A DNA stretch of 16,501 nucleotides, taken from NCBI GenBank assembly GCA_021809365.1, contig JAKBAC010000069.1:1-16501 (forward strand). Direction: 5' to 3'. The stretch comes from Planctomycetota bacterium (lineage in GTDB: Bacteria > Planctomycetota > Phycisphaerae > WQYP01). The notes below the pieces were generated by a model. It ran no database searches, had not been told where the DNA came from, and was given only the letters and a program-made list of their open reading frames with translations. A program made the translations under genes and the position numbers. Of the stretch, positions 1,603 to 12,862 are shown piece after piece (positions within the stretch are counted from its first letter, which is position 1; the number at the start of each line of letters is the position of its first letter).

Positions 1603-2400
1603 CTAATCGTTGGAAAATTCCTTTTCACGGCTGGCCAATTGTGCGCGTAGCCGGGCGATGATACTGGAGTGCATCTGGCTGACACGCGATTCGGACAATT
1701 CCAGGGCATCGCCGATTTCCTTCATGGTCATTTCTTCATAGTAATACAACACAAGGATCATTTTTTCAGACCGCGAAAGCCCGCGGGTGATCAACTCCTT
1801 GACATCGCGCCGATGGAGAATGGTCAAAGGCGAATCCGATGTTGTATCTTCCAGGACATCGACTTCGCGCACATCCTTGTCATTGTCGGATTCGAACCAT
1901 TTGCGCGACAGGCTGACCTGGGTTACGGCGCTGGAGTCCTTGAGTATCTTGTCAAATTCATCCGGCGACACGCCGAGGTGGGCCGCGATCTCCGCCTGTG
2001 TGGGTGCCCGGCCAAGCTTCATTTCCAATTGACGTGAAGCCTGAATGACTTTGCTGGAGCGGCTGCGCACCAGACGTGGCACCCAGTCCATGTTTCGCAG
2101 TTCGTCGAGAATGGCACCTCGAATGCGGGGGGCGCAATAGGTCTCAAACTTTACGCCGCGTGTGGGGTCGAACGACTCTATGGCATCTTTGAGGCCGAAG
2201 GTGCCGGCCTGCATAAGGTCGTCGAGATCCACTTCATCCGGAAGTTTGGAGTAGATGCGATCGGCATTGTATCGCACCAGCGGCAGGTACTCCATCATGA
2301 GAAGATTGCGCTGGATTTCGGTTTTGTTGGCCTTGAACTTCTTCCAGACCTCGTTGATGTCCTGTTCAACAGCCGCGGTGGTGGTATGCGTTTTAGCCAT
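1603..2400 (-). CDS. fliA: FliA/WhiG-type alternative sigma factor (sigma-28 family)
   Basis: This 265-residue RNA polymerase sigma factor has regions 2, 3 and 4 in order. Region 2 spans ~28-98 and includes the core-binding stretch DLMQAGTFGLKDAIESFDP and the -10 recognition part KFETYCAPRIRGAILDELR. Region 3 spans ~108-155, and region 4 spans ~205-258 with an HTH around MKEIGDALELSESRVSQ. Length and the YCAPRIRGAI motif fit FliA/WhiG rather than RpoD or an ECF sigma. In flagellated bacteria this family drives late flagellar and chemotaxis genes; none of those lie in the window, so that role is inferred. The ATG at 2400 is preferred over an upstream in-frame ATG at 2598 because AAGGAG lies 7 bases before it and the family homology starts there. 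An overlapping ORF ends 8 bases inside (ATGGCTAA), which would suit translational coupling. Confidence 0.9.
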   Translation of the reverse strand: MAKTHTTTAAVEQDINEVWKKFKANKTEIQRNLLMMEYLPLVRYNADRIYSKLPDEVDLDDLMQAGTFGLKDAIESFDPTRGVKFETYCAPRIRGAILDELRNMDWVPRLVRSRSSKVIQASRQLEMKLGRAPTQAEIAAHLGVSPDEFDKILKDSSAVTQVSLSRKWFESDNDKDVREVDVLEDTTSDSPLTILHRRDVKELITRGLSRSEKMILVLYYYEEMTMKEIGDALELSESRVSQMHSSIIARLRAQLASREKEFSND

Positions 2401-2797
2401 GGGTCGCTCCTTGACCTGACCGGCACCGGGCACCATGAACAGCAAGACATTCACCCGGCGCAAAACAGCGGCAGGCCTCGTGCCCGCCGAACTGAAACAA
2501 CATGTCCGCCAACGCCACAAGCGGGACGGAGACCAATACTGATGTTCCAAATTTATCGGTGGATGAAAAAGTCTTTGAAATGGCATTGATTCCGCCACGC
2601 AAGCCGAGGCGAACCGCAGGAATACCGGTACGTTGAAGCAAGTGTGTCAAACTGGGCAGAGAACCAAGCATATCGAATCCATTCGTTTCGTTGCTTCGGG
2701 CATCCTTCCCGGTCGTATCAGAATTTCCGCCCGCAAATCTCGGGCACAACATTATTTCCAACTCTGACGCGCTCACGTACTGCATAGCCTGAATCAT
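2393..2797 (-). CDS. possible 134-residue hypothetical protein overlapping the sigma gene start
   Basis: An open frame runs from ATG at 2797 to a TAA that overlaps the sigma factor's ATG as ATGGCTAA, the arrangement of translationally coupled genes. A weak AAAGGG lies about 9 bases before its ATG. The product would be soluble and rich in Cys near its end (several Cys in the last 30 residues). I recognise no family, and the C-terminal part reads less like a folded protein than the first 100 residues. If it is not a gene, the 520 bases between the FKBP stop and the sigma start are an unusually long leader. Existence as a gene is uncertain. Confidence 0.33.
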   Translation of the reverse strand: MIQAMQYVSASELEIMLCPRFAGGNSDTTGKDARSNETNGFDMLGSLPSLTHLLQRTGIPAVRLGLRGGINAISKTFSSTDKFGTSVLVSVPLVALADMLFQFGGHEACRCFAPGECLAVHGARCRSGQGATHG

Positions 2798-5093: not shown

Positions 5094-5480
5094 ATGGAAG
5101 AAGTTGACTCCTTTGATCTACATGCGGCGTTTCTGCGTCGGGCGCAAAAGGATATCAAGTCTTTTCTGGAAGCATTTGCAACCCGGATCGAGCAGTCTCT
5201 GCCGGGGCAGGTGGAGGTTCATCGTAAGAAAGACTCCCTGTTTGCCAAGACGCAGCATGTGGTGGGAATCACCATTCACCTGGGAGCGAATCGTTTTGTG
5301 CTGGACAACTCCGGCAGCGGCCTGCATTTGAGCCGGTGCAACGAGGTCCGCGGCATTGTGCTGAAAAATGAGGAATTGCAGTTGCCGCAATGGTTGGCCA
5401 GCTTAAATGAAGAACTCGGTGCCATGTCCGCGGATATGCATGGTACTCAGAGTCTTCTGCATGATTTTCTGATGAATTAA
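5094..5480 (+). CDS. 128-residue protein of unknown function beside the YbjQ-PspA operon
   Basis: A soluble protein of 128 residues with no signal peptide or membrane segment. The first ~35 residues look helical (DLHAAFLRRAQKDIKSFLEAFATRIEQ begins the chain in two adjacent parts). The middle (~36-90) looks like alternating beta strands, including VEVHRKKDSLF and ITIHLGANRFVLDN. The end (~95-128) is helical again around PQWLASLNEELGAM. The ATG is supported by GAGG 8 bases upstream and a good promoter further up. I recall similar short proteins near YbjQ-type genes in other phyla but cannot verify this. It has its own promoter and a second lies between it and the next gene, so it may be co-regulated with the operon rather than always co-transcribed. 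No function is assigned. Confidence 0.8.
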   Translation: MEEVDSFDLHAAFLRRAQKDIKSFLEAFATRIEQSLPGQVEVHRKKDSLFAKTQHVVGITIHLGANRFVLDNSGSGLHLSRCNEVRGIVLKNEELQLPQWLASLNEELGAMSADMHGTQSLLHDFLMN

Positions 5481-5512
5481 TTGCGCTGGAAAAGCACTCG
5501 GAGATTTAGTGA

Positions 5513-5662
5513 ATGGCCATGGGATTGTTGGTTGGGCTGGATGACTTGTTCAAGCCGCTGCTGTGCAACGTGGGGAACGTATGCCTGGAAAATGAAGCGG
5601 TGAAGGTTAAATTATTTTTGTTCGCCCGCACGATTTTCGGTACAATACGTATGGGAAGGTAG
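5513..5662 (+). CDS. possible 49-residue small ORF
   Basis: ATG at 5513, with GGAG 9 bases before it, opens a 49-codon frame ending in TAG at 5660-5662. The product is partly hydrophobic (LLVGLDDLFKPLL near the start, VKLFLFARTIFGTI near the end). It overlaps the promoter of the following operon, which argues that it is either chance or a short leader of read-through from the upstream gene. No family is recognised. Confidence 0.22.
   Translation: MAMGLLVGLDDLFKPLLCNVGNVCLENEAVKVKLFLFARTIFGTIRMGR
5618..5646 (+). promoter_or_regulatory. sigma-70-type promoter of the YbjQ-YbjQ-PspA operon
   Basis: TTGTTC at 5618-5623 and TACAAT at 5641-5646 are spaced by 17 bases, about 78 bases before the operon's first ATG. 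This differs from proteobacterial pspA, which uses sigma-54 and PspF; nothing resembling that was found here. Confidence 0.65.
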
Positions 5663-5723
5663 CGTTTTCGTCGTTATGGATGTCAGCCGAGGCTAAAACA
5701 ACCCGATTTTGTAAGGATTTACC

Positions 5724-6635
5724 ATGTCACTGCTCGGTCGTGCGTTAGGAATGAACCAGGATCCGGATCGGCAGCGGCATCAGGCAGAGCAGCAGGCCCG
5801 TAATCAAGCATGGGAGACGGCGTTAACCAATGCGACACTGCCGGATTTTGTCAAACAACGTCTGGCGGACACAAAATCGGGAAAGTTGCCATGGGTCTCC
5901 ACCGGCTCGGTAGGGGCGTTGCTGGCGCAGAGATCGCATGGCATACATCCATTGGGAATGGTATCAGGCAATTGCTGGTATCATTATGGCTATTCATGGA
6001 CACGCGGCCACTATGACGGGTGGCATACGGCCATTGATCGGATGCAGCACGAAGCGGCGCTGATGGGGGCCAATGCCGTGGTGGATGTTCAAATGAGTGC
6101 CACACGCATGGAGGGCACCGGCGAAGATCAGATGGATTACGCGGTGTTGGGAACGGCGGTGCGTATTGCGGGATTGGCCGCGCCGCGTGTTCCGGTGATC
6201 GCGACCGTCTCGGCATTGGAATTTGCCCGCCTGATGGAATCCGGGATTCTGCCCACCGGACTGGCAATTGGCGCGCACTATAATTGGCATTACTCATATA
6301 ATAACATCGCCGGGCAGGGTAATTGGTGGAATCAGGAATTAACGTCATTGTCAGAGTTCATGACGGACGTGCGCCGCACGGCGCTAGGCCAACTGGCCAC
6401 GGATGCGGCCCGCCTGGGCACAGGCGTCTTGGCGCGGGTGCAATTTTCAGAGTTGTTGCGCGGCGAGCCGCTGGAGAATGATCCGCGTCAGCGCTTTCTC
6501 GGAAGGCACATCGCGTTTGGCACGGCGGTGCTCCATGAGCCGGGGCATCATCATCCACTTAGTTTACGAGCTGTTTTCAGTGTCAGTGATGGTAAAATGA
6601 CTCCAGTTATGCCTACAGAAAAGGAGATTATCTAA
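5724..6635 (+). CDS. two-domain YbjQ-like (UPF0145/PF01906-type) protein, divergent copy
   Basis: The 303-residue protein appears to hold two YbjQ-like domains, at ~57-150 and ~160-271. Each ends in the family's signature: a helix with alternating Arg/Met (AIDRMQHEAALMGANAVVDV in the first), then a strand closing with the LGTAVRI or FGTAVLH motif. The first domain carries GNCWYH at 82-87. The matching site of the second is GAHYNWHY (192-199), where Cys is missing. The chain is unusually rich in His, Tyr and Trp, and its tail has HEPGHHHP. The N-terminal ~50 residues are a Gln/Arg-rich helix. UPF0145 proteins are annotated as putative heavy-metal-binding, with little experimental proof. ATG at 5724 has AAGGA about 9 bases upstream. 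The stop overlaps the next ATG by one base (TAATG), so the two are translationally linked. Confidence 0.78.
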   Translation: MSLLGRALGMNQDPDRQRHQAEQQARNQAWETALTNATLPDFVKQRLADTKSGKLPWVSTGSVGALLAQRSHGIHPLGMVSGNCWYHYGYSWTRGHYDGWHTAIDRMQHEAALMGANAVVDVQMSATRMEGTGEDQMDYAVLGTAVRIAGLAAPRVPVIATVSALEFARLMESGILPTGLAIGAHYNWHYSYNNIAGQGNWWNQELTSLSEFMTDVRRTALGQLATDAARLGTGVLARVQFSELLRGEPLENDPRQRFLGRHIAFGTAVLHEPGHHHPLSLRAVFSVSDGKMTPVMPTEKEII

Positions 6636-7483
6636 TGGCGGACAACACAACCAACACACCAAACCCGGCGCTGGCGGGACTTCCCAAGCACGCTTTGGAG
6701 CGACTGCAGGGATTGCGTGAGGCGGGTCAAAGCGGCGGAATATTTACCTCGGATCTGTCCGTCAACGAGTTCCTCATGGTGCGCGAAGCGGGTTTTGAAC
6801 CGCTGGGCATGGTGGTAGGCTCGTGCATTTATCACGTCGGCATTCAATATGGATCATGGGGGCAGAATCAGGAATTGAATGTGATTTCACAGGCCATGTA
6901 CCAGGCGCGTGAGCTGGCCATGACACGCATGGAACAGGAGGCCCTGACACTGATGGCCGATGGTGTCGTGGGTGTACGGCTGGAAGTCAAGCGATTGGGC
7001 TGGGACAGCGATATACTGGAGTTCATGGCCATCGGTACCGCCATTGCGCACAGTGCCGGTCATCCGGGATTCAAGGGGCCTAAGGGCATGCCCTTCACCT
7101 CCGATCTCTCCGGGCAGGATTTCTGGATGCTCTTACGGGCGGGCCATCGGCCGCTGGCCATGGTGATGGGATCGTGTGTCTATCATGTTGCGCATCAGGG
7201 CGTTCTGAAATCCATGGGAAATGTCGGGCGAAATGTGGAGATTACCCAATTTACCCAAGCCATGTATGATGCCCGCGAGTTGGCGATGGAACGCATGCAA
7301 AATGAGGCCAAAGAAGCCGCCGCGGATGGCGTGGTGGGCGTGCAGTTGCACGAAGGATCGCATAATTGGCAGCCGCATGTGATCGAATTTTTTGCCGTTG
7401 GCACGGCGGTTAAGCCCATTGAGGATAAATCACTGATTCCGGAACCCGCATCCCCACAAATTGTAATCCCGGTCAATGATTAA
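6635..7483 (+). CDS. tandem two-domain YbjQ-like (putative heavy-metal-binding) protein
   Basis: The 282-residue protein is an internal duplication. Domain 1 is ~36-138 and domain 2 is ~153-262, and both start with a near-identical FTSDLS motif (37-42 and 154-159). Each carries GSC(I/V)YH (62-67 and 179-184), a Q-A-M-Y-x-A-R-E-L-A-M helix (86-96 and 208-218), a DGVVGV strand (109-114 and 231-236) and a final IGTA or VGTA strand. These last three elements are the hallmark of UPF0145/YbjQ, a small-protein family that forms oligomeric rings. The Cys-x-Tyr-His site is not in the classical E. coli YbjQ pattern as I know it. It is soluble, with no signal peptide. AAAGGAG lies 8 bases before the ATG, inside the end of the previous gene. 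It is followed by PspA after 42 bases. Metal binding is a family annotation, and the true ligand is unknown. Confidence 0.85.
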   Translation: MADNTTNTPNPALAGLPKHALERLQGLREAGQSGGIFTSDLSVNEFLMVREAGFEPLGMVVGSCIYHVGIQYGSWGQNQELNVISQAMYQARELAMTRMEQEALTLMADGVVGVRLEVKRLGWDSDILEFMAIGTAIAHSAGHPGFKGPKGMPFTSDLSGQDFWMLLRAGHRPLAMVMGSCVYHVAHQGVLKSMGNVGRNVEITQFTQAMYDARELAMERMQNEAKEAAADGVVGVQLHEGSHNWQPHVIEFFAVGTAVKPIEDKSLIPEPASPQIVIPVND

Positions 7484-7525
7484 ATGTGTTAATTTCATCG
7501 TATTGAAATAAAAGGAGTTTATGTG

Positions 7526-8248
7526 ATGAGCAGCATGTTTCACCGAGCGGCTGAAATTGTTGAGGCGAAAGTAAATAAGTTTCTGAACGCCTCGGAAAAT
7601 CCGGATGAAGCGTTGGACCTGTCCTATGAAAAAATGCTGGGTATTCTGCAGGAAACCAAGCGTCACCTCGCGGACGTGGTCACCGAGCAGAAAACGCTGG
7701 AACGACAGATGCTTGGCGCACAGAGCGATGCGCACCGGGCGGAAAATGACGCGCGAATGGCGCTGCAGGCCGGACGCGAGGACCTGGCCCGCGCCGCATT
7801 GGCGGAAAAGCAGGCCGCCGATCAGAAGGCTGCCTCGCTGAAAGAAGCCAGCGATCATGTTGCGGCGCAATCACAGAAACTAATCACCTATGAGAAGCAG
7901 TTGGAAGACCGCATTGATCAATTCCGCACCCAGAAAGAGGTCATGAAGAGCCAATATGACGCGGCTGCAGCCGAGGTTAAGGTAAGCTCGAGCATGTCCG
8001 GTATTGGCTCGGAATTGGGCAACGTCGGCGAGACGCTGCAGCGAGCCAAGGACAAGACCACTCAAATGCAGTCACGCGCTGATGCAATGGAATCACTGAC
8101 CGACTCTGGTGCTCTGGATGATGGTGTTGACGGCCACACTAAAACGGAACGTGATCTCGATGCCTTGCGGGCGAATTCTGGTGTGGATGCGGACTTGGCA
8201 CGCCTGAAGGCCGAAGTGAATCAGACCAAGCGGTTGCCGTCGGGATAG
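7526..8248 (+). CDS. pspA: PspA/IM30 (ESCRT-III-like) family membrane-maintenance protein
   Basis: The 240-residue protein has the PspA/Vipp1 layout. An amphipathic start (MFHRAAEIVEAKVNKFLNA) is followed by DPE-like NPDEALDLSYEKM and a long coiled coil over ~40-180 rich in Ala/Glu/Gln/Lys. A C-terminal stretch follows with DSGALDD and a DADLARLKAEV helix, as in actinobacterial and cyanobacterial homologues. The family binds stressed membranes, oligomerises into rings and rods, and limits proton leak. GGAG at 7514-7517 is 8 bases before ATG 7526; the GTG one codon upstream (7523) is a poorer alternative. It is the last gene of the YbjQ operon and stops 14 bases before the convergent thioredoxin gene, leaving no room for a clear terminator. 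Confidence 0.9.
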   Translation: MSSMFHRAAEIVEAKVNKFLNASENPDEALDLSYEKMLGILQETKRHLADVVTEQKTLERQMLGAQSDAHRAENDARMALQAGREDLARAALAEKQAADQKAASLKEASDHVAAQSQKLITYEKQLEDRIDQFRTQKEVMKSQYDAAAAEVKVSSSMSGIGSELGNVGETLQRAKDKTTQMQSRADAMESLTDSGALDDGVDGHTKTERDLDALRANSGVDADLARLKAEVNQTKRLPSG

Positions 8249-8262
8249 GTGGATGACTTCCC

Positions 8263-9036
8263 TTATAAGCCCAGATAGGTTAACACATTTCCCCGGCCTA
8301 TGATCGCGGAGAGCGATTGCATCGCCGCGGTATTGCGGCGCAATTGTTCGACCGCTTTGGGACCGCTGCGCCGAACCGCAAATAGAAACTGCTTGGCCGG
8401 CCCAATCAGCGATGCGTCGCGGCCAATTTTCGGGGAAATTTTCGCTACGCCCGCGATGGCTCCCGCGAGGTCATGTTTCTGTTCCAGCATCTGCGTCGCC
8501 GCGGACAGAATCTTGGCTGCGTGGTTTGCGAATATCGCCTGCGTGGGATGCTTTTTCAGTTGTGCCCGCAGTGCCGCCGCCAACCGGGTCGGGTACCCGG
8601 TCCATAAAACCGTCCCCGTCGGCCCGATGATAAACGCATCAGGTATGCCCTTGACACCCCAACTCGTCGCCATGGGATCACTTCCCGTCAGACCATCGCA
8701 TACCTGCGGCCAGACGTATCCAATGGCCCGGGCCGCCTGTTGCATGGCACCAAGATCGCTATCCGTGGATACACCAAGAAATCCCACGCCCTGCTTGGAG
8801 AATTCCTTGTAGTCCTTCACCACATCCGGTGCATGTCGTATGCAGTGAGGACACCAGGAGGCCCAAAACTCAACCACCAATAAATGCCCTTTCAGCATCC
8901 TATTGGTAATGGACAAGCCCGTGGTGGTTGTACAATTCAGGTGAACTTTATCGCCAACCGCCAAGGTTGCCGCGTGAATGGATCCCGCAGCCAGACTTAA
9001 CATCAATAAACATATTCCCAAAATTCGCGTCTTCAT
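8263..9036 (-). CDS. exported TlpA/ResA-like thioredoxin-fold protein
   Basis: The 257-residue product starts with a signal peptide (1-~22, Lys-Arg then a Leu-rich core, AHA-type cleavage site). A thioredoxin fold covers ~25-150, with the active site WCPHC at 61-65 and the cis-proline in GIPDAF at Pro132. CPHC is the dipeptide of DsbA rather than the usual TlpA CxxC, so the active site may be more oxidising. The last ~100 residues are an Ala/Lys-rich, probably helical extension not found in short TlpA proteins. It likely acts as a thiol-disulfide exchange protein in the periplasm; its partner is unknown. ATG 9036 has GGAGG 8 bases upstream, and a longer in-frame start would disrupt the signal peptide. 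Confidence 0.85.
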   Translation of the reverse strand: MKTRILGICLLMLSLAAGSIHAATLAVGDKVHLNCTTTTGLSITNRMLKGHLLVVEFWASWCPHCIRHAPDVVKDYKEFSKQGVGFLGVSTDSDLGAMQQAARAIGYVWPQVCDGLTGSDPMATSWGVKGIPDAFIIGPTGTVLWTGYPTRLAAALRAQLKKHPTQAIFANHAAKILSAATQMLEQKHDLAGAIAGVAKISPKIGRDASLIGPAKQFLFAVRRSGPKAVEQLRRNTAAMQSLSAIIGRGNVLTYLGL

Positions 9037-9070
9037 GACAAAGACCTCCAATACATGTGCGGCAACTACC

Positions 9071-9099
9071 TTTATAGCATTTGGCGGATGGCAATGCAA
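9071..9099 (-). promoter_or_regulatory. sigma-70-type promoter of the thioredoxin gene
   Basis: On the - strand TTGCAT (complement of 9094-9099) and TATAAA (complement of 9071-9076) are separated by exactly 17 bases, about 35 bases before the ATG at 9036. Confidence 0.65.
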
Positions 9100-10342: not shown

Positions 10343-12862
10343 TTGGACATTTCTATTTCAACACAACACATTGATCCGGTATGCGGCATGATCGTTGTGG
10401 CGGAAAAAGCCGCCGCCAGATGGGAATATTCAGGAACAACCTATTACTTTTGCAGTCAACGCTGTCAGGACAAGTTTAAGGCTGATCCGGAAACATATCT
10501 CAATAAGCCGCCGCCAATGCCGGCCCGCGCGGCCATGGTGCAATTGGGGGTTTCCACAAAGCTGAAATCCGGCACTGCGGCGAATAACGAGCCGATGCCG
10601 CCACCGACCGCGACACCATCCAGCGCCAAAAAAACCGCAAACTACATCTGCCCGATGTGCCCCGAAATCGCCAGTGATCGGCCCGGGCCATGCCCGAAAT
10701 GTGGAATGGCGTTGGAAATGGCTCTGCCGATTCTGGCCGTCCGGTCTACGATGCTTCAATACACCTGCCCGATGCATCCGGAAATTATCCGCAATCAACC
10801 CGGTGCGTGTCCGATATGCGGGATGGCATTGGAGCCGATGGAGGCCGCACTGGAATCCGAAGACAGAAATCCGGAATTGGCGGATATGACCCGTCGCTTC
10901 TGGATCGGCGCAATGGTGACGTTGCCGATATTTCTCCTCTCCATGTTCGCCGACTTCAACATTGCCGGTCTCCAGAGCGCGCCATGGCTCAATTGGGTCA
11001 ATCTCATCCTGGCAACACCGGTGGTGTTTTGGTGTGGATGGCCCTTTTTTGTGCGGGCGTGGTTATCGCTTGCGACGTGGAATCTCAACATGTTTACGCT
11101 GATCGGCTTGGGCGTGGCGGTGGCCTATGTGTACAGTCTGGTGGCGACACTGGAACCCGGTCTTTTCCCGCGCGCGTTTCAAACCCATACCGGTGTTGTG
11201 GCCACATATTTTGAAGCCGCCGCGGTCATCATTGTTCTGGTGTTGCTGGGTCAAATGCTGGAATTGATGGCCCGCGGAAAAACGGGTGCCGCCATTCGTG
11301 AACTCCTGAACCTCTCGCCAAAAGTGGCTCGCCGCGTTCTGGCCGATGGCCATGAAACGGATGTCCCGGTTGAATCACTGGTTGTGGGCGACAAACTTCG
11401 GGTGCGCCCCGGGGAAAAAATTCCCGTGGATGGCATCGTGCTCGACGGCACCAGTACCGTCGATGAATCCATGATTTCCGGCGAGCCGATTCCCGTGGAA
11501 AAGGCCGTTGGCGACAGGATAATTGGGGGAACGGTTAACGGCACCGGCGGCTTGCTGATGGAGGCTCAAAAAGTCGGAGCCGAAACAATGTTATCACAAA
11601 TTGTGAATCTGGTTTCCCAGGCCCAGCGCAGCCGCGCTCCAATTCAAAAGCTGGCCGATCGGGTTGCCGGAATCTTTGTGCCCGCGGTGGTCGCTTCGGC
11701 CCTGCTTACTTTTATTCTATGGGCCGTGTTCGGTCCGGCCCCCGCGATGGCGTCCGCCCTGGTAAATGCCGTTGCGGTGGTGATGATTGCCTGCCCGTGT
11801 GCCCTGGGACTGGCCACGCCGATGTCGATAATGGTGGGTGTCGGCCGCGCCGCGAAATCAGGTGTGCTGATAAAAAATGCCGAGGTCCTTGAACGCATGG
11901 AACAAATTGACACCATCGCACTGGATAAAACCGGTACCCTCACCGCCGGCAAACCCCGGGTGGTAACACTGGAACCGCGCGAGGGCGGTTCCGCTGATGA
12001 ACTGCTGCAGTTGGCGGCTTCGCTGGAGCGGGGAAGTGAACACCCGTTGGCTGCCGCCATGGTCCAGGCCGCACAGGAAAAGCATCTTCCATTTTTGGCG
12101 GTCAAGGATTTTCAATCCGTCAGCGGGCAGGGGGTTGAGGGGCAAATCAATGGCCGGCAAGTGACCATCGGCAACGCCATGATGATGCGGCGAAAGCTCG
12201 TCGCCATCGAAGTCCTGGAACAGCGGGTGGAATTGCTGCGCGCCGATGGGCAGACGGTCATTTATGTGGCGGCGGACGGCCAATTGCTGGGGCTTGTCGG
12301 TGCCGCCGATCCCATTCGACCTGACGCGGCGGGCGTGGTGCAAAGTCTGAAAGAAAGCGGATTGTCCGTCGTGATGATCACCGGTGATAACCCAACCACC
12401 GCGATGGCGGTAGCACGAAAATTGGGCATTGATACCGTTGAAGCCGGAGTTTTGCCGCAGGAAAAAGATCAAGTCATCCGCCGCCTCCAAAGCCAGGGAC
12501 GAAAAGTCGCCATGGCTGGTGATGGCATCAACGATGCCCCCGCCCTGGCCCAGGCCGATGTCGGGATCGCCATGGCCACCGGCACTGATGTCGCCATTGC
12601 CAGTGCCGGCGTCACGTTGTTGCGCGGTGAGTTGGCTGGAATCCAGCAGGCCCGCCGATTGAGCATTGCGACCATGCGCAACATCCGGCAGAATCTGGCC
12701 TGGGCGTTCGGCTATAACATTCTGGGAATCCCCGTGGCGGCCGGCGTGTTGTATCCATTTCTGGGAATTTTGCTAAGCCCGATGATCGCGGCGGCGGCGA
12801 TGAGCTTCAGCAGCGTATCGGTGATCACCAACGCCCTTCGTCTGCGCAACGTGAAAATATAA
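10343..12862 (+). CDS. copA: Cu(+)-type P1B ATPase with YHS and two CPMxPE metal-binding modules
   Basis: The 839-residue protein should export Cu(+) or Ag(+) from the cytosol, driven by ATP. In order it has a YHS domain (~8-53: DPVCGM, CSQRC) and a Pro-rich linker. Two heavy-metal-binding modules follow at ~101-125 and ~140-165. After these come the transmembrane and actuator regions (SGEPIPVEK), the transport motif CPC at 484-486, the phosphorylated Asp528 in DKTGT, a GSEHPLA motif, TGDNPTT, and GDGINDAP at 726-733. The end has [16 protein letters not shown], the Cu(+) signature of the last helix. It has no N-terminal MXCXXC ferredoxin-like domain. The first module reads CPMCPE where the second has canonical CPMHPE. 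No ATG precedes the YHS domain: TTG at 10343 is the usual choice, but its Shine-Dalgarno (GAGG at 10337-10340) is only 2 bases away and would fit ATT at 10349 better. Confidence 0.93.

Follow-up and report, generated by a model that had tools for sequence, protein, structure and literature searches.

A conserved gene set, proposed to be a PspA-based envelope-stress module, with two double YbjQ-like proteins and a new protein family

Do the four consecutive genes at positions 5094 to 8248 of a contig from a Planctomycetota bacterium (JAKBAC010000069.1, assembly GCA_021809365.1; the whole stretch of 16,501 nucleotides is called the window) belong together? A preliminary description of this DNA had listed a protein of 128 residues (P128), two tandem YbjQ-like proteins (Y1 and Y2) and PspA and had proposed that they might form an envelope-stress module with P128 as a possible fourth member. 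All four open reading frames (ORFs) were found where it had placed them on the forward strand, namely P128 (5094..5480), Y1 (5724..6635, 303 residues), Y2 (6635..7483, 282 residues) and pspA (7523..8248), which codes for 241 residues from GTG 7523 or for 240 from ATG 7526. The reported one-base overlap is real, as the TAA of Y1 and the ATG of Y2 have one base in common (TCTAATGGCG), and the gap of 42 bases between the stop of Y2 and pspA is correct if counted to ATG 7526 (39 bases to GTG 7523). A purine-rich stretch precedes each of the four genes. Here, we show that the four genes are a conserved set with a new protein family, P128, and propose that this set is a PspA-based envelope-stress module.

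The evidence for this comes from a profile search with the Y2 alignment alone in a collection with one genome per species (84,980 species). At least 594 stretches were matched, at least 576 of them encode relatives, and the best 80 loci (numbered with the prefix L) were retained. Y1 is adjacent to Y2 in 79 of the 80, the exception (L047) starting at a contig end. P128 is nearby in 75 loci; four of the misses (L012, L037, L047, L065) lie at contig ends and L049 is an absence as judged by the P128 profile. PspA is found in 54 loci, a TelA protein in 17 and neither of them in nine. Among loci with the standard order (other gene orders were left out of the spacing count) Y1 and Y2 overlap or directly touch in 42 of 74, and no more than 30 bases separate them in 72 of 74; the gap between P128 and Y1 has a median of 15 bases (n=71). 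Gene order varies and the members stay: Y2-PspA-P128-Y1 occurs in L024-L027, P128 comes last in L042 and L046, and TelA lies downstream of Y2 in L088. In the loci L081-L097 from samples of families and phyla P128 and Y1 are present in 17 of 17 (weakly in L088, with 44 and 71 bits) and PspA or TelA lies within 1.5 kb in 16 of 17; the remaining L094 is from the genome of L068 and has TelA just outside. Within the Acidithiobacillus family all four genes occur in 25 of 26 loci, the other one being cut by a contig end. These samples overlap, since seven of the 17 loci come from genomes that also supplied some of the 80, as several of the 26 must do. With such frequencies of Y1, P128 and PspA the suspicion that the four genes are rarely neighbours elsewhere can be dropped, and from the recurrence of the set over the 80 loci and the kinship samples the genes represent a conserved module with the 128-residue protein as a member. 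Chance falls far short of explaining a cluster that is conserved across phyla.

P128 stands for a family without a Pfam model: the ORF is matched by neither Pfam nor NCBIfam, any Pfam family hit among 49 relatives scanned at E≤1 is limited to two of them at most, and nothing credible was found against PDB profiles (best E 0.57). A relationship with PspAA was considered and rejected, as P128 lacks similarity to the PspAA of L156, and a figure of 13 relatives as their total proved to be an artefact of the limit of a word-based search.

The two YbjQ-like proteins differ in their relation to the Pfam family YbjQ_1 (PF01906, gathering cut-off 23 bits), which matches Y1 in one stretch (36.6 bits) and Y2 in two (77.5 bits); all 35 members of the Y1 alignment match it at E≤0.01. 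The two halves of Y2 are clear duplicates by profile comparison, each with a GSCxYH motif (Cys64/His67 and Cys181/His184). Y1 aligns with Y2 over 244 columns as a diverged paralogue, and its second half is strongly diverged. The postulated four YbjQ-like domains are supported, as the first and second half of Y1 both match the first half of Y2 (99.5% and 98.1% probability), with only 37% probability for the two halves of Y1 against each other. Over the loci Cys181 and His184 of Y2 are kept in 80 of 80, His67 in 79 and Cys64 in 78, and Cys84 in the first half of Y1 in 77 of 78 (one gap; the Y1 rows of L045 and L047 were dropped). The solved structures of the same domain family (YbjQ/UPF0145; 1y2i, 1vr4, 2gtc; profile matches with E 0.0007-0.016) are short chains of 103-133 residues, in contrast with the tandem arrangement and the two different double proteins of the module and the GSCxYH motif of Y2. 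"Heavy-metal-binding" is for YbjQ the putative label of Pfam. According to an excerpt of PMC4092069 the YbjQ fold is also that of RcsF (a sensor of envelope stress), of DUF1471 and of an archaeal selenium-binding protein, and YbjQ, DUF74 and the selenium-binding protein are pentamers. Excerpts of PMC6414554 report that Escherichia coli YbjQ rises (log2 1.71, one time point) while depolarised persisters recover and that PspA is made in the same persisters, which is no more than a hint. In a sulfate reducer two genes that may be related to those of the module, one with a heavy-metal-binding domain and one a pspA, rank with the most strongly raised genes of one condition (excerpt of PMC10533852). 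A reading of YbjQ as thiamin phosphate synthase (PMC7084401) was not used; that activity belongs to YjbQ, a different family. Apparent Y1-Y2 fusions (ORFs of 527-636 residues in L023, L043, L045 and L068) were also discarded, being frames read from an earlier start, with the Y1 frame broken in L045. Two actinobacterial genomes contain three YbjQ genes in a row (L161:4902-7392, L163:5556-8247), so the YbjQ set is amplified there.

PspA of the window matches PF04012 (PspA_IM30) with 95.8 bits (cut-off 33.9) over residues 5-232 of 241 and profile positions 2-218 of 220. With a score above gathering over nearly the full length it belongs to PspA/IM30 in the ESCRT-III superfamily, and it matches Vipp1/PspA chains with a best E of 8.5e-18. 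The proteobacterial PspA equivalog TIGR02977 is not reached (91.9 bits vs a cut-off of 242.95). A profile of module-type PspA gives 328-388 bits for the PspAs of module loci where these are whole (248 for the cut one of L146), 182-232 bits for actinobacterial PspAs and 36-79 bits for the majority of the further PspAs in module genomes (13 for the partial one of L108). Exceptions among the latter are the extra PspA of A. ferrianus (358 bits) and two acidimicrobial proteins (222 bits) apart from the module. In a quick tree with long-branch warnings, from which L004 and the partial L108 (13.4 bits) were left out, module PspAs branch separately (99*) from the further PspAs of their genomes; L109 gave no match. 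At E≤1e-25 this profile found three of 249 Pseudomonadota (the genome at the centre of the sample with 346 bits, two others with 93), one of 199 Planctomycetota (again the centre genome) and 20 of 119 Actinomycetota, 16 of these at 186-231 bits. The first two samples say little on stand-alone PspA because their sole module-level PspA is that of the centre genome. An Nramp metal-transporter gene immediately precedes the extra A. ferrianus copy, which lies elsewhere than the module (L158:4496-6617).

Several known systems share PspA with this locus. By profile (182-232 bits) the nearest PspA subtype is that of the actinobacterial PspA-PspAA-PspAB locus (with an M48 peptidase), where PspA also goes with small partners; L156 (PspA-PspAA-M48-PspAB) and L157 (same gene lengths) have neither YbjQ proteins nor P128 beside PspA, and neither PspAA nor PspAB was matched among the window ORFs scanned. 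The proteobacterial Psp system consists of PspF and PspABC and depends on sigma-54. It has the PspA/IM30 membrane protein in common with the module, in which we find no excess of sigma-54 sites, a conserved sigma-70-type site instead, and no PspB, PspC or PspF among the 13 window ORFs scanned. Bacillus subtilis PspA is likewise linked to another protein family, SPFH (excerpt of PMC8581546), for which no match was obtained among the window ORFs scanned.

A second partner of the same core are the TelA/KlaB toxic-anion resistance proteins (PF05816), which belong to another clade and not to the window locus. TelA lies just upstream of P128 in the 17 loci mentioned above (one representative was identified by Pfam scan, the others by profile), and the Y2 tree requires a single switch of PspA and TelA if rows with neither are left out. 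PspA is thus no obligatory member, being replaced by TelA in one clade. In Listeria, mutation of the TelA-like lmo1967 raises the sensitivity to nisin and tellurite (excerpt of PMC12791056). Actinobacterial loci keep P128-Y1-Y2 with PspA elsewhere. All nine genomes of the loci with neither partner adjacent have a PF04012 match elsewhere, and those of L006 and L007 have the wider PspA subtype there (218-219 bits). In these two loci a protein of 940-950 residues with a PF04185 phosphoesterase domain comes directly after Y2, where PspA is expected (L006:6649-9471, L007:8891-11743); it has relatives also in L062 and L067. Both bins may be mislabelled because they are labelled Deltaproteobacteria, yet their Y2 falls among planctomycete ones. 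A response-regulator protein divergent from P128 in a single Caulobacterales locus (L051:4192-6516, reverse strand) is a possible regulator there and was rejected as a recurrent neighbour.

By record titles the module ranges over Planctomycetota, Pseudomonadota, Actinomycetota and Bacillota. Its frequency was estimated with Y2 profiles in kinship samples, each of which includes its centre genome and takes its group name from the record title of that genome. At E≤1e-60 Y2 was found in two of 190 genomes of the Acidiphilium class, eight of 200 of the Acidiphilium family, eight of 147 of the Dyella family and one of 199 of the planctomycete phylum (the centre). At E≤1e-25 it was found in two of 299 genomes of the Acidiphilium phylum (Pseudomonadota), i.e. 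one of 298 besides the centre, in ten of 246 of the phylum of an acidimicrobial genome (Actinomycetota) and in 26 of 29 of the Acidithiobacillus family. The distribution is thus patchy, with near-fixation in a single family of acidophiles. Moreover, 20 of the 80 record titles name Acidithiobacillus, Igneacidithiobacillus, Acidiphilium, Acidocella, Alicyclobacillus or Acidiferrobacteraceae, all of them acidophiles, and together with the near-fixation this points to low pH as a frequent setting. A decayed remnant of P128 and a double YbjQ protein was seen on a plasmid typed conjugative from the cyanobacterium Aulosira laxa (L112:5637-6657).

The module moves without its surroundings because, for eight of nine other window genes tested, none of the 80 loci contains a relative at E≤1e-20. 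The ninth, CopA, has relatives within 8 kb in five loci, all of Acidithiobacillus type. Surroundings differ even between close relatives. Besides the module and TelA no neighbour family is present in more than 14 of the 80 loci within 5 kb, the commonest being GGDEF, mainly in one clade. Recurrent neighbours such as UvrD (nine loci), ABC transporter, MFS and GGDEF/EAL (14 loci within 5 kb), named by Pfam via one or two representatives, come mostly from single clades and were rejected as members; the neighbour families f9 and f11 have no Pfam match.

What could such a module do? We see about an even chance that P128, Y1, Y2 and PspA form one functional, horizontally spread membrane-stress module, in which a soluble YbjQ platform would operate with an exchangeable effector, an arrangement that agrees best with the gene data. 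No long hydrophobic stretch is present in any of the four proteins (highest 19-residue hydropathy 1.42). Since solved YbjQ proteins are pentameric, Y1 and Y2 with their four YbjQ-fold domains are proposed to assemble into a ring or double ring, soluble in the cytoplasm, which would serve as scaffold and perhaps, via its conserved Cys/His sites, as sensor. P128 would be the constant adaptor of this platform, which might recruit or assemble an exchangeable membrane-acting protein, either PspA as an ESCRT-III-type remodeller or TelA, at the damaged cytoplasmic membrane. Near-fixation in the acidophile family suggests leakage of protons at low pH as a frequent insult; PspA is reported to repair proton leakage (title of Kobayashi 2007, cited in PMC11471286). 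Sensing of metals, oxyanions or thiols by the Cys/His sites may be added as a weaker inference, and the coupling of metal or redox state to membrane repair that had been suggested before is likewise speculative. More tentatively, and as something possible rather than probable, P128-Y1-Y2 could be a free-standing platform against membrane damage that is older than the operon link to PspA, the YbjQ rings being a cytoplasmic counterpart of RcsF-type sensors, the effectors PspA or TelA being exchangeable by lineage and the whole having spread as a unit among low-pH bacteria.

A number of observations weigh against the proposal of a membrane-stress module. The sample of 80 loci leans to close relatives of Y2 because only the best 80 were retained. 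The correlation between the distance matrices of the four proteins (r 0.77-0.90; 0 of 999 permutations as high; near-identical rows with distance ≤0.03 and the PspA fragment of L004 were dropped) speaks for the proposal and also reflects shared descent. On the objection that this type of PspA normally occurs without YbjQ partners the evidence is divided: a module-level PspA apart from the module was seen once, in the extra Acidithiobacillus copy (L106/L158), and the wider subtype of 186-231 bits in Actinomycetota is mostly without Y2. Of the 16 Actinomycetota with this wider subtype only three (G010, G1118, G1106) had a Y2 match, i.e. the PspA subtype nearest to the module type is mostly found without the module. 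Neither PspA nor TelA is adjacent in L006, L007, L049, L051, L053, L056, L058, L065 and L066, the last two being cut by contig ends. The actinobacterial loci L116-L121 have P128 and at least two YbjQ proteins, but neither PspA nor TelA lies within 1.5 kb, nor was either seen in the five of them inspected over 9-13 kb; L115, the locus of the sample centre itself, gives the same picture. Five of the L116-L121 genomes hold the wider PspA subtype elsewhere (203-232 bits) and G1234 matches PF04012 and not the module profile. L122-L124, also actinobacterial, have a Y2-like protein with no P128 or Y1 within 1.5 kb, and two Streptomyces plasmids carry a YbjQ pair followed by P128 with no PspA or TelA nearby. 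Among TelA-type genomes 13 of 17, or 15 of 21 counting L085-L088, have no PF04012 match, a figure that has no base rate and includes several incomplete metagenome bins. Position 64 is not Cys in Y2 of Streptomyces (where it is Ser, with Cys181 retained) and of the distant L088. Finally, acid cannot be the whole story because Streptomyces, which are not acidophiles, carry the core, and acid habitats are metal-rich too, with the CopA relative near five loci of Acidithiobacillus type.

The last point leads to a response to metals or oxyanions, in which the Cys/His sites of Y1 and Y2 would bind a thiophilic metal, selenite or tellurite, PspA or TelA would limit the ensuing membrane damage and the acid link would be secondary to metal-rich acid drainage. 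The near invariance of these residues, the naming of TelA as toxic-anion resistance protein, the binding of selenium by a pentameric protein of YbjQ fold (excerpt of PMC4092069) and the CopA-like P-type ATPase in the window and in the five loci speak for it, and a passage on A. ferrooxidans on pyrite (PMC6450195), concerning a gene that may be Y1 or Y2 (AFE_1862), was counted on the same side. Nevertheless, we consider this response somewhat unlikely: "heavy-metal-binding" is only a putative label, no CopA relative was seen in the other 75 loci (other metal genes were not searched systematically) and Cys64 is replaced in some members. Alternatively, the P128-Y1-Y2 core could be a separate system, e.g. 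of protein quality control, whose place in one operon with PspA or TelA would merely ensure joint regulation under stress. Six actinobacterial loci and nine of the 80 with neither partner adjacent would be explained in this way, but two different envelope-stress proteins occupy the same operon in different clades, changes of order leave the set intact and PspA is found elsewhere in all nine genomes without an adjacent partner, and such a separation appears unlikely. A neighbourhood by chance or hitch-hiking with no functional link is extremely improbable in view of the conservation across phyla with tight spacing and the lack of any comparably frequent neighbour family, and for P128-Y1-Y2 it is in effect excluded. 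A role in known anti-phage defence was not indicated either, as PADLOC models gave no match at E≤0.01 to the four proteins and one TelA partner.

The expression signals of the window locus were described before as two good sigma-70 promoters, of which one stands. It precedes P128 (5020..5049, forward strand, TTGTCA-18-TATAAT, 11 of 12 consensus positions), and its -10 element and the TTG of its -35 element are kept in all six of the sequences compared (window and the five closest relatives L001-L005). The other, before Y1 (5618..5646, forward strand, TTGTTC-17-TACAAT), is a probable weaker promoter, supported because TTG and TA(C/T)AA are conserved in L001-L005 and thus in all six. The consensus scan yielded four sites vs 3.0 ± 1.7 in shuffles, which is chance level, and listed only the former of the two. 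The noted absence of a sigma-54 site is supported, with 134 sigma-54-like sites (≤3 mismatches) vs 147.5 ± 11.4 in shuffles; a divergent site is conceivable. Elsewhere in the window there are genes for an AhpC/TSA-thioredoxin-type protein with a signal-like N-terminus (8263-9099, reverse strand, convergent with pspA), for the CopA-like heavy-metal P-type ATPase with YHS and two HMBD stretches (10343-12862, forward strand, about 2 kb downstream of the module) and for a sigma-70 family factor with regions 2, 3 and 4 (1603-2598, reverse strand), whose listed start is probably too far upstream.

The main texts of two surveys of PSP systems (PMC11237479, PMC9239133) contain none of the terms YbjQ, UPF0145, heavy metal or metal-binding, TelA is absent from the main text of the former, and no description of the P128-Y1-Y2-PspA set was found in the parts of the open literature that were searched, subscription papers and supplements being outside the search. 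If the proposed membrane-stress module is true, the widespread and functionally obscure YbjQ/UPF0145 family would obtain a cellular role, and a new family (P128) and a new set of partners would be added to the PspA response. It would also suggest PspA and TelA as alternative effectors and would provide a testable idea of how acidophiles may repair proton-leaky membranes.

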